A stretch of 64,000 nt of DNA from Longimicrobiales bacterium. GTDB taxonomy: Bacteria > Gemmatimonadota > Gemmatimonadetes > Longimicrobiales > Gaopeijiaceae. The notes under the pieces are model-generated. The model had not been told where the DNA came from. It searched no databases and saw only the letters and a list, made by a program, of their open reading frames with translations. The stretch spans positions 1-64,000 of the forward strand of contig JANQNV010000114.1 of NCBI GenBank assembly GCA_028279425.1, in the 5' to 3' direction. Positions within the stretch are counted from its first letter, which is position 1. The number at the start of each line of letters is the position of its first letter. Below, one piece after another: positions 5,239 through 34,750 of this stretch. Both the position numbers and the translations under genes were made by a program.

Positions 5239-6435
5239 TCAGTCGTAGACGAGCCAGAGGGGACCCGGAAGCAGCCACGCCAGCGCCTCCCGTAGACGGT
5301 CCCGCCAGTTTTCCCAGTTGTGTCCATCGCGCGCCTCGACGAAGCGCACCTCCATCCCGGTCTTCCGCAACACCGGAACGAGCGATCGGTTCTCGTAGAT
5401 CAGCGACTCGTACATGCCGCAGGTGACGAACACCCGTTCGGCCACCGCGGTCGGTTCGCGGCGGTACTCGTTCACGAAGTCGGCGATCGGGTCGAAGATG
5501 GGCCCACGGCCGTGTTCGCCGATGTCGGAGAAGGCGAAGGAGCCGGACTGCAGGAGCAGACGCCCGAAGGTGTCGGGGTAGCGCACCGCGGTCGACAGCG
5601 TTGCCACCCCTCCCAGACTCGCCCCCATCAGGCAGCGCCCGGCCGGCTTGCCGGTCAGCGGAAGCGAGCGCTCGAGTTCGGGAATCAACTCCTCGACGAG
5701 ATAGCGGGAGTGGGCCTCGGACCCGCGATACTGCTCCATGCGGTCCGGCGGGTGCATCAGCCCGGCGATGACGCCGGGGATCTCCAGGCGGTGGATCAGG
5801 TTGTCGAGCACGGTCTGGAGTCCCGCGTACTTCAGGTAGTCGCCCCCGTCGTGGACGAGCAGGAGTGGGTACCTGCGCGTAGGTCGAAACCGCGCCGGCC
5901 GGTAGAGGGTGACGCGACGCGAGCCACCCAGGGCACGCGATCGGAAGACCCGATCTTCGAGGGTCCCGCTCGGCACGTTCGGGTCGGGAATCGTCCACTC
6001 CGGCTGCTCGTAGCCGAACCCGTACGCCACCGAGTTGGCCCCGAACGGGTCTCGGGCGAGGTGCGGGTTGAGCGGGTCCTGGACCCACTCGGTGTGCGCG
6101 CCCCGCACGACCTCGAGCTTGTACTCCACCCGCGAGCCCTCGGGAAGATCGAGCACGTCGTACCAGAGGTCCGTGCCGCGAATCCGGTGGAGAGAGCCCG
6201 TGGTGGTGAGGCCGAAGATCCAGTGCCTCAAACGCACGGCGTCGGCCTCTCCGCGATACAAGAAGGTGACCCGGGGCCCCTCGGCGAGGGGGACTTCGTG
6301 TCGCCCGAGGAAGTCGTCGATCGCACCGGGGGAAGGCGGGGTCCCTGCTTCGGCAGCCCCAACGAGCTCGGCAATGGCGAGGCCATCGATATCGGGAGGA
6401 GTCGCCCCGACCTCGGTGTCCGGCACCCACTTCAT
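5239..6435 (-). CDS. Fes-like esterase with N-terminal E-set/CBM48-like domain
   Basis: This 398-residue protein resembles enterochelin-esterase-like enzymes. An N-terminal beta-sandwich type region (about residues 40-155, with LRHWIFGL and LPEGSRVEYKLEV) is followed by an alpha/beta-hydrolase domain with the nucleophile elbow GASLGG and the C-terminal histidine in RDGHNWENW. No signal peptide is visible. The ATG at 6435 has a GGAGG eight bases upstream and overlaps the preceding stop as ATGA. Fes-type enzymes hydrolyse ester bonds of trilactone siderophores, but nothing else here indicates a siderophore, so its role is more likely to be linked to the neighbouring ATP-grasp ligases. Confidence 0.85.
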   Translation of the reverse strand: MKWVPDTEVGATPPDIDGLAIAELVGAAEAGTPPSPGAIDDFLGRHEVPLAEGPRVTFLYRGEADAVRLRHWIFGLTTTGSLHRIRGTDLWYDVLDLPEGSRVEYKLEVVRGAHTEWVQDPLNPHLARDPFGANSVAYGFGYEQPEWTIPDPNVPSGTLEDRVFRSRALGGSRRVTLYRPARFRPTRRYPLLLVHDGGDYLKYAGLQTVLDNLIHRLEIPGVIAGLMHPPDRMEQYRGSEAHSRYLVEELIPELERSLPLTGKPAGRCLMGASLGGVATLSTAVRYPDTFGRLLLQSGSFAFSDIGEHGRGPIFDPIADFVNEYRREPTAVAERVFVTCGMYESLIYENRSLVPVLRKTGMEVRFVEARDGHNWENWRDRLREALAWLLPGPLWLVYD

Positions 6436-7361: not shown

Positions 7362-8581
7362 CGCGCCCTCAGTTGAGTGATCTGCCCGATCGCATCGAGC
7401 ATGGAGCGGAGTTCGTCGTAGTCGGGATGGCGCAATCGAAGCCATGCGTTGGCCATGAAGCCGTCTTCGACGCCCTGGGTGGGCGTGCCTTCGGGCGGGA
7501 TCCGGGCATCGAGCACCCAGCGGCCATACCGGCGATAGACCTCGTCGAGGCCCTCGCAGTGCGTGATCGTCCCATCGCGGTCGGGCCGTAGGGCGATCAA
7601 ACCCGCAGAGTAGTTCCTCGACGGCGCCGTCGAGACGCGCCCGTGGACCACCGCACACGCCCACTCGAAGTAGAGATCGAAGTCGTTGGCGGCCGAATAG
7701 AGGTCCCACGTGCGTACCCCCGGCGGTCGACAACCGATCTCGGAGAAACGTAGCCCCTTGGGACCGAAGAACCACTCCATGTGGGTGGCGCTCGTACCGA
7801 TCCCGAGAAGGTCGTTGACCCGCTGCCCGAGCGCCCTCACCTCGCCGTAATGCTCTCCCGAGTCGATGCGGTTGGTCGTGACGATCTGGGGCGAAATCCA
7901 CCGCGCCCGCATACCTTCGAGCACGTTGGGGTAGTAGTGGCTCACGAAGTCGTGGGCGATCCGGCCGCCGATGGAGAGGGTGTCGTAGAAGCCTTCGTGC
8001 CCCTCGACGAATTCCTCGACCGCGACGCTCCCCCCCTGCCCCACGCCGGCCCGCGCCAGCGCCCCCCGCAGTTCGTCGTCGGAATCCACCCGGTCGGTGC
8101 CCGAGGCTCCCGCCGCCGACCGGGGCTTGACGATGAGCGGGTAGCCGACGCGGTGCGCGAAGTCGACCAGCGGCTCCACTTCGTCACCTCCGATCGATGA
8201 AGCGGTTGCGACGCCGCCTTCGCGGAGCACCTCCTTCATGGCCGGCTTGTCGCGGCACAACCAGGCCGTGCGGACCGACGTCCCCTCGATCCCGAGCGCC
8301 TCGCGCACCTGTGCGGCCGCCATCACATGGGCCTCGATCGTCGCCTCGAGCCGATCCACATGCTTGCGACGCGATATCCACTCCACGGTACGGGCGAGGT
8401 GTCCGGCGTCCACGACGGTCGGCACCTGCTCATAGTGCAACATCCAGCGGCGCAGGTCGTCGTCGAGCGCGTCCTTCGGGCGCTCTCCGATACCGGTGAT
8501 CGTGGCGCCCGCGTGATGCAGGGCGCGAACGAACTCCTTCTGGTTGGCCGGAAAGCAGGGTTCGATGAAGACGACGTGCAT
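7358..8581 (-). CDS. ATP-grasp carboxylate-amine ligase (paralogue A)
   Basis: The 407-residue protein starts with a Rossmann-like strand (HVVFIEPCFPANQ), then an ATP-grasp domain with YPLIVKPRSAAGASG (about residues 166-180), a THMEWF motif and the terminal EIGCRPPG loop. The same HMEW and ExGxRPPG motifs occur in the two plus-strand paralogues at 11728 and 13016, so the three are one family. I use the ATG at 8581 because it aligns with the paralogues' N-termini; an ATG at 8614 is also possible. The family resembles L-amino-acid ligase type ATP-grasp enzymes. It is the first gene of a tightly overlapping five-gene operon divergent from the ADOP gene at 8739. Confidence 0.8.
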   Translation of the reverse strand: MHVVFIEPCFPANQKEFVRALHHAGATITGIGERPKDALDDDLRRWMLHYEQVPTVVDAGHLARTVEWISRRKHVDRLEATIEAHVMAAAQVREALGIEGTSVRTAWLCRDKPAMKEVLREGGVATASSIGGDEVEPLVDFAHRVGYPLIVKPRSAAGASGTDRVDSDDELRGALARAGVGQGGSVAVEEFVEGHEGFYDTLSIGGRIAHDFVSHYYPNVLEGMRARWISPQIVTTNRIDSGEHYGEVRALGQRVNDLLGIGTSATHMEWFFGPKGLRFSEIGCRPPGVRTWDLYSAANDFDLYFEWACAVVHGRVSTAPSRNYSAGLIALRPDRDGTITHCEGLDEVYRRYGRWVLDARIPPEGTPTQGVEDGFMANAWLRLRHPDYDELRSMLDAIGQITQLRAR

Positions 8582-33667: not shown

Positions 33668-34750
33668 TCAGCCGCCGCCGTAAATCGGCACGCCGGGGAA
33701 TGTGAGGCTGAAACCGTACCAACGCGTGAAGACCTGCAACGGTCTCCGATCCGTGGCACGCCCCCCGCCCGCCGTGTAGAGCACACCGCCCTCGATTCTC
33801 TCGCCGTCGTTCAGCCGGAGCACGTTGTCGTCCCACTCGAAGCCGTCGGCCTCGGTGAAGTAGGCCGCGAGCGCACGGGCCGTAGGATCGAGATACACGA
33901 GGATGCCTCGCCCGTCGTAGCGCCCGAGGATCGCATTCCCTTCGGCCAGCACGGTGTCGTAGGGATAGTAGATCGCCTGGTCGCCTCCCCAGACCCCGAG
34001 TCCGAGATCCATCGTGGGACGACGGTCGTCCTCCCGTTCGATCGTGGCCGAGAAGAACTGCGACAGGCCGCCCCGCACACGCGCCAACAAGCCATCGAGC
34101 TTCAGGTTGTCTTCTTCCCACAGCTCCCTGTCCGAGAGCGCCACGACCGCGTCGGAATCCTGAAGTAGCGCCTGGGCCACGGTCGTTTGTTGAAGCGCGG
34201 TGACGTCGAGCGACGTGCCCACCATGGGTCCGTACACGGCCTCTCCCGTCATGTGATCCCAGAACGTGCCCGACTCTTCGTCTCGCATGAGGAAGAGACC
34301 GTCATACAGGCCGTGCTCCGAGAAAAGGTGCACGTCGCCGGCGATGCTCGGAGCCATCCTGGCTCCCGAATTACACACCACTCAGAACGTCACCATCCAG
34401 GGTTCACCCGCCATGTCGCCCTGCGCCACGTGGTGGTACGACATCTGGCTCGTGACCAACGCGAGGGTCTGCCCCCCGGCCTCGAACACGAGCACGGGAG
34501 TGTCGTTCGAGACGTCTCCACGTCGCAGAACCGACCGCAGCGGTTCGAAGTCCGGATCGCGAAGGGGGGTGAAGATCGGCTCGGAACCGAGAAACGCTCG
34601 CTCGGCATCGAAGCCCTCCTTGCGAGGCAAGTCCGGATCGACCGTAAGCTCGGGCGGGGCGGTCTGGGCCGAGAGGCCAGGTGCGACGAGCAGTCCGAGA
34701 AGGGCGGCGCCCCCCCAGCGGAGGGCTGGCGCGCGACGTGTGGTGGCCAT
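33668..34750 (-). CDS. DUF3179 protein with in-frame UGA, probable selenoprotein
   Basis: One frame of 361 codons is interrupted only by a UGA at 34384-34382. Upstream are 122 residues with a Sec-type signal peptide (ALRWGGAALLGLLVAPGLSA) and the first half of a DUF3179 domain (DTPVLVFEAGG, GEPWMVTF). Directly downstream in the same frame are VVCNSGAR, GLYDGLFLMRDEESGTFWDHMTGEAVYGPM and the rest of the domain. DUF3179 proteins have a CxxC at this place (VTFCxxCN type); here the first Cys is UGA, giving UxxC (residues 123-126), the classic selenocysteine pattern. A SECIS-like hairpin follows. AGGAG lies seven bases before the ATG. The alternatives are a nonsense mutation or two genes, but nothing else in the frame has decayed. 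The role is unknown, probably redox or metal binding outside the cytoplasm. Confidence 0.78.
34347..34370 (-). other. SECIS-like hairpin after the UGA of the DUF3179 gene
   Basis: Counting from the UGA, bases 16-21 (GGAGCC) pair with 27-32 (GGCUCC), and a three-pair extension below them has one bulged G. The apical loop is AGGAU, with G at its second position, 21 bases after the UGA. Bacterial SECIS elements are hairpins immediately downstream of UGA with a G near the start of the apical loop at about this distance, so the fit is good by eye. Confidence 0.65.

Follow-up and report, generated by a model that had tools for sequence, protein, structure and literature searches.

DUF3179 gene with an in-frame UGA codon

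The window, i.e., the whole 64,000-nucleotide stretch analyzed here (positions 1 to 64,000 of contig JANQNV010000114.1, assembly GCA_028279425.1, from a Longimicrobiales bacterium of the phylum Gemmatimonadota), contains on its minus strand a gene of the DUF3179 family (PF11376) with a UGA codon inside its reading frame. Very probably, this gene encodes one DUF3179 selenoprotein of 360 residues, presumably exported, in which the UGA at 34384-34382 is translated as selenocysteine (Sec). The features of the locus are as follows:

33668..34750, minus strand: predicted DUF3179 selenoprotein gene, from ATG to terminal TGA, 360 codons, with the UGA as codon 123
34664..34750, minus strand: probable signal peptide, residues about 1-29, a hydrophobic stretch followed by LSAQ (by inspection)
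34430..34435, minus strand: His106-His107, 15 residues ahead of Sec, invariant in a 23-row alignment
34382..34384, minus strand: UGA codon 123, predicted to be read as Sec, first position of UxxC
34373..34375, minus strand: Cys126, second residue of the UxxC pair, invariant in the same alignment
34350..34366, minus strand: candidate bacterial selenocysteine insertion sequence (SECIS) hairpin, 6-bp stem and 5-base loop AGGAU at 34360-34356

The preliminary description of this DNA placed the two halves of the DUF3179 domain in one frame, split by this UGA alone, in a gene with no other break. The coordinates and the frame are as it gave them, and the translation shows a single in-frame TGA before the terminal one at 33670-33668. 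Joined, the two halves reach 68 bits against PF11376 (cut-off 27); the half downstream of the UGA scores 30.2 bits by itself, and the upstream half gives no match at E<=0.001. Such a gene could also produce two proteins, if the UGA terminates translation and a restart occurs at the adjoining GTG (34381), where the list of open reading frames (ORFs) indeed has a downstream ORF beginning. However, the joined domain scores far above either part, and the start is not general, as some homologues have CCC, ATC, GCT, or GGC after the UGA. Two separate products are thus very improbable.

Comparison of the window's gene with five relatives gave ratios of nonsynonymous to synonymous substitution rates (dN/dS) of 0.10-0.30 for the part before the UGA and 0.14-0.27 for the part after it; these ratios are rough, since dS in the same comparisons is 1.0-1.7, near saturation. 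The values indicate purifying selection on the gene parts both before and behind the UGA and, being similar on either side, suggest that the downstream part is as protein-like as the upstream one. A pseudogene split by a nonsense mutation, or a sequencing error, would be compatible with one in-frame stop within a draft genome, but the gene is otherwise unbroken, selection appears to act on either side of the UGA, and the same TGA occurs in many separate assemblies from several phyla, as described below. The probability of this explanation is minimal.

Conservation of the UGA at the position of a family cysteine

The read-through protein was compared with 154 genomes of the order. All 24 matches spanning the site (E<=1e-40, the window included) have TGA at codon 123, its place being read directly in each. 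Within 22 of the order's copies and the window, the site has the context GEPW(M/L)V(T/S/A)F-U-xxCN; the TGA of the G053 copy was read separately. The preliminary description considered that sister strains could carry other stop codons or frameshifts at this place; instead, three genomes of the same genus, among them the single-contig 4.1 Mb genome G044, have TGA there. In two further genomes of the genus (G042 and G046), a close copy of the gene was not found.

A search of 395 Gemmatimonadota genomes gave 34 matches at E<=1e-25, distributed over 27 genomes. Exactly one TGA is present in each of the 29 nearly full-length matches (E<=5e-119), its place being read in the 17 matches from the window's order and not in the other 12, and no cysteine (Cys) copy of this branch of the family was found among them. 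The remaining five matches are fragments or weak. Scanning GTDB contigs with the 23-row alignment of the Sec branch gave 65 loci, 63 with TGA and two with Cys at the site, both of the latter in Bacteroidota (L106 with TGT, L111 with TGC); two Sec-protein motifs upstream of the UGA served as seeds, and Cys relatives with other motifs are possibly under-sampled. According to record titles and their taxonomy, the TGA loci belong to nine phyla: Gemmatimonadota, Acidobacteriota, Chloroflexota, Actinomycetota, Planctomycetota, Myxococcota, Thermodesulfobacteriota, Pseudomonadota, and Bacillota. Single phylum labels may be wrong, all records except Paraliomyxa miuraensis and Marinithermofilum abyssi being metagenome-assembled genomes (MAGs).

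All 23 rows of the alignment match PF11376 (E<=0.1), and the only invariant cysteine-type positions in it are 123 (Sec) and 126, within UxxCN. No NCBIfam model fits the two of these 23 proteins that were submitted. The weaker matches in the order (about 23-32% identity) belong mostly to the canonical DUF3179 branch and are without stops. The canonical Cys proteins of the same order share about 23-32% identity with the window's protein and have the motif WHEIVND...VT(F/Y)CPLCN, with HE where the branch described here has HH. Their Cys is aligned to Sec in nine of nine rows, so that the UGA lies, as proposed earlier, at the family's first Cys of CxxC, where wider-family relatives read CPLCN. A second DUF3179 gene, without stops, is also present in the window's genome, on contig C22.

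A Cys is aligned with the UGA position in 23 distinct rows altogether (13 of the wide set and 12 of Thermoactinomycetaceae, two being common). If a code change or a suppressor caused the UGA to be read as Trp or some other standard amino acid, the frame would be continuous as well, but every non-TGA copy read (these 23 rows) has Cys at the site. Moreover, the gene itself ends in TGA, which makes TGA also a stop in this genome, and the presence of the gene follows that of tRNA-Sec, as detailed below. There is scarcely any likelihood left for this explanation.

Two of the weaker matches in the order contain TGA: one at G053:C368 and one on contig C38 of G056 (L073, about 7845-8360). The latter is a remnant, a truncated second DUF3179 gene with a TGA that looks decayed; its frame differs from that of a channel-like ORF just ahead of it. 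Another arrangement is seen in L103, a Gemmatimonadota contig with two Sec-DUF3179 units in tandem and in one frame (UGA at 6277 and 7459), each having its own TGA and hairpin.

SECIS hairpin downstream of the UGA

The SECIS of E. coli fdhF is a hairpin located directly 3' of the UGA. The hairpin of the window resembles this type of bacterial SECIS in placement, while its sequence is its own. When recomputed, its positions agree with those given before: it starts 15 bases past the UGA and its AGGAU loop lies 21 bases past it. Folded alone, it has an energy of -10.7 kcal/mol. The rules for bacterial SECIS elements, as worded in a recent review (PMC13188914, section 5), place a G among the first two loop positions and set a spacing of 16-37; the window's hairpin, with a spacing of 21, agrees with them. 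Rfam gave no match over the 201 bases around the UGA.

The hairpin is taken as real because it is conserved, with covariation, across homologues. In the 23 aligned genes, all six pairs are kept in every gene (138 of 138 cells) and two-sided changes occur at four of the six; the covariation score was reached by none of 500 shuffles, and the number of pair types was matched by 31 of 500. In a wider set of 55 distinct rows, 326 of 330 cells are paired and 23 two-sided changes are seen, against a shuffled mean of 5.1; again, four of the six pairs have two-sided changes, a number reached by 9 of 500 shuffles. This set leaves out L140 and ten shifted rows, of which the ten were counted apart and L140 in neither set. 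The ten shifted rows have 60 of 60 cells paired with a loop one base longer; none of 500 shuffles reached their covariation score, and 177 of 500 reached their number of pairs with two-sided changes. The hairpin noted in the preliminary description thus has, in sets of 23, 55, and 10 rows, compensatory changes that keep its pairs. At the corresponding site of canonical Cys DUF3179 genes, in contrast, only 1-3 of six pairs form in the register with a 5-base loop and 2-5 in that with a 6-base loop.

The shifted rows form a sub-branch (L129-L133, L135, L137-L139, and L141), in which U-xx-CSSG replaces U-xx-CN and the SECIS loop has one additional base in ten of ten.

Selenocysteine machinery in host genomes

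The genome of the window was searched for selA, selB, selC (tRNA-Sec), and selD, which the preliminary description had named as a check, and all four were found. The native tRNA-Sec, on contig C71, shares 91-93 of 97 positions with its counterparts in five genomes of the genus. Within the order, tRNA-Sec was found in 16 of the 19 genomes with the Sec DUF3179 gene, and tRNA-Sec or selA in 18 of 19 carriers versus 95 of 135 other genomes. For the wider loci, 44 host genomes were considered, and 35 of the 42 with TGA have tRNA-Sec, as against none of the two with Cys. The threshold for tRNA-Sec was set at >=59 bits, higher than the Rfam cut-off of 47, since ARAGORN assigned a match of 46 bits to tRNA-Ser; with the search tool's own cut-off, 36 of the 44 genomes have one. 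These hosts cover 44 of the 65 loci. Of the 21 left out, 20 lie in genomes of the order, and the remaining one, L134, has the same assembly name as L125.

The selD gene of the window's genome (L047, G000 C324:30571-31497) itself has one in-frame TGA; its SelD is probably also a selenoprotein.

Several observations limit or weigh against the case for translation of the UGA as Sec. The hairpin of the window, taken by itself, is weak and unspecific evidence: of the 1200 TGA triplets on the two strands of the window, 167 are followed by a hairpin of at least 6 pairs that meets the published loose SECIS rules, so a lone hairpin proves little, and the 48 bases from the UGA have a folding z-score of just -2.25. 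One TGA locus, L140, pairs at only three of six positions. The window's MAG, a 5.4 Mb draft in 339 contigs, is 89.8% complete and 5.8% contaminated; its selA is split into two contig-end pieces, and its selB, close to a contig end, matches 345 of the 581 positions of the model. It also has a second tRNA-Sec (C127:3211-3305, L004) that is like the native one at 69 of 99 positions and probably stems from a contaminating genome. The order-wide link between gene and machinery fits but is modest, given how widespread the machinery is in the order (113 of 154 genomes). Three of the 19 carriers in the order are without tRNA-Sec, G053 being also without selA, and a clear tRNA-Sec was not detected in 7 of the 42 TGA hosts; these ten cases are weak absences, as all are draft assemblies.

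The UGA is conserved, it lies at the position of the family's Cys, a covarying hairpin stands at a constant distance behind it, and Sec machinery is present; for these reasons, read-through of the UGA as Sec is considered nearly certain on comparative grounds. By analogy with established biology, SelB carrying Sec-tRNA-Sec would bind the mRNA hairpin and insert Sec at the UGA.

Sec and Cys copies and the evolution of the branch

In ten Thermoactinomycetaceae genomes, 20 matches to the branch were found, eight with TGA and 12 with Cys. The TGA copies belong to six genomes, all of which have tRNA-Sec (>=66 bits). Three genomes are without a strong tRNA-Sec (best 44-50 bits): G473 and G474, with Cys copies only, and G478, with no match. 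In G476, a Cys copy occurs together with tRNA-Sec. All eight distinct Sec copies have the whole hairpin, versus 2 of 12 Cys copies (Fisher 7e-4, kinship ignored), the other ten Cys copies having three to five of the six pairs. That the whole hairpin accompanies TGA and is missing from most Cys copies is a further argument against termination at the UGA with a restart behind it.

Sec and Cys paralogues thus coexist in single Bacillota genomes. Marinithermofilum abyssi has three tandem DUF3179 genes (L117:3964-6873), in the order Cys, Cys, Sec, of which the first Cys copy (L117:3964-4851) is one of the two with a whole hairpin and has an AGUAU loop after its TGC. This hairpin may be a relict SECIS, but the events may also have run the other way round. 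Thermoactinomycetaceae with both copies, such as the isolate M. abyssi, are suited for a direct test of what Sec contributes, and Sec/Cys pairs in culturable Bacillota could yield the first function for DUF3179.

For a wider tree, 35 of 136 profile matches were dropped, having no letter at the Sec column, and duplicates were merged to 81 rows (68 Sec, 13 Cys). The tree was rooted on nine canonical Cys rows, and 68 of the other 72 rows are Sec. It needs four changes between Sec and Cys, at least three of them forced by starred branches; the Thermoactinomycetaceae tree likewise needs four, with at least three forced. Both are quick trees with several open forks and long branches, and the underlying search was Sec-seeded. 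With Cys as the outgroup state, the trees would fit a single gain of Sec followed by several returns to Cys. A change from Sec to Cys is described as rare in bacteria and documented mainly for FdhA and SelD, according to a 2026 review (PMC13188914, section 10). Tentatively, the HH-x15-UxxC branch of DUF3179 can be regarded as old and widespread, with Sec being ancestral and prevalent and the Cys copies having arisen later by reversion, some with a relict SECIS; we hold this history to be plausible, slightly short of probable.

Relation to known selenoproteins and possible role of the protein

Whether Sec-containing DUF3179 proteins are already annotated was a question raised with the preliminary description. 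The selenoprotein tables of PMC9312934 and PMC13188914 list DUF3179 (pfam11376, UxxC/T); the former credits it to Zhang and Gladyshev 2007, from a deltaproteobacterial symbiont of Olavius algarvensis, and the latter cites its reference 60 for the same symbiont. The DUF3179 selenoprotein is therefore of an already known kind, and the window's gene is a further member. Compared by table entry, the listed protein shares with it the Pfam family and Sec as the first residue of UxxC. The case of the window differs from the entries, as far as these are accessible, in its occurrence in Gemmatimonadota and other phyla, in SECIS covariation, and in the sets of Sec/Cys paralogues. What is added is a separate branch of the family that mostly contains Sec and, by record titles, extends over nine phyla; the wide branch, the covariation, and the paralogue sets were not found in the open-licence literature searched, which is partial. 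In annotation, genes of this kind are readily mistaken for pairs of fragments or for pseudogenes, so that much of a broad branch of selenoproteins may be hidden.

Judged by inspection of the N-terminus, Gemmatimonadota members of the branch are probably exported, and the protein would be extracytoplasmic. After export to the periplasm, which is less sure than Sec insertion, the selenol of Sec123 together with Cys126 (UxxC), with the invariant His106-His107 15 residues ahead, could do redox chemistry on a periplasmic partner. Such a periplasmic selenol redox role seems somewhat more likely than not. Two results speak against it. First, apart from DUF3179 and antisense ORFs, no conserved neighbor family occurs in more than five of 67 stretches (the window, L078-L141, L065, and L071; a few places are included twice and many stretches end at contig ends), and one cluster of seven was the upstream half of DUF3179 itself. 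Second, a sequence search for solved homologues gave three matches with E of 0.25-0.5, none credible. Alternatively, Sec could bind a metal together with Cys126 and His106/His107, and not act as a redox nucleophile; the same residues are invariant in either case, and we regard this role as unlikely.

The strand pattern of the structural model hinted at an internal repeat, for which profile comparison gave no support. Residues 92-201 of the model appear to have a weak fold similarity to Rieske-type [2Fe-2S] proteins (VIA-align). The Rieske cluster ligands CxH...CxxH are absent, as the 23-row alignment has UxxCN only. Based on the aligned ranges and the ligand numbers known for Rieske proteins, Sec appears to lie ahead of the stretch that matches the Rieske cluster loops.
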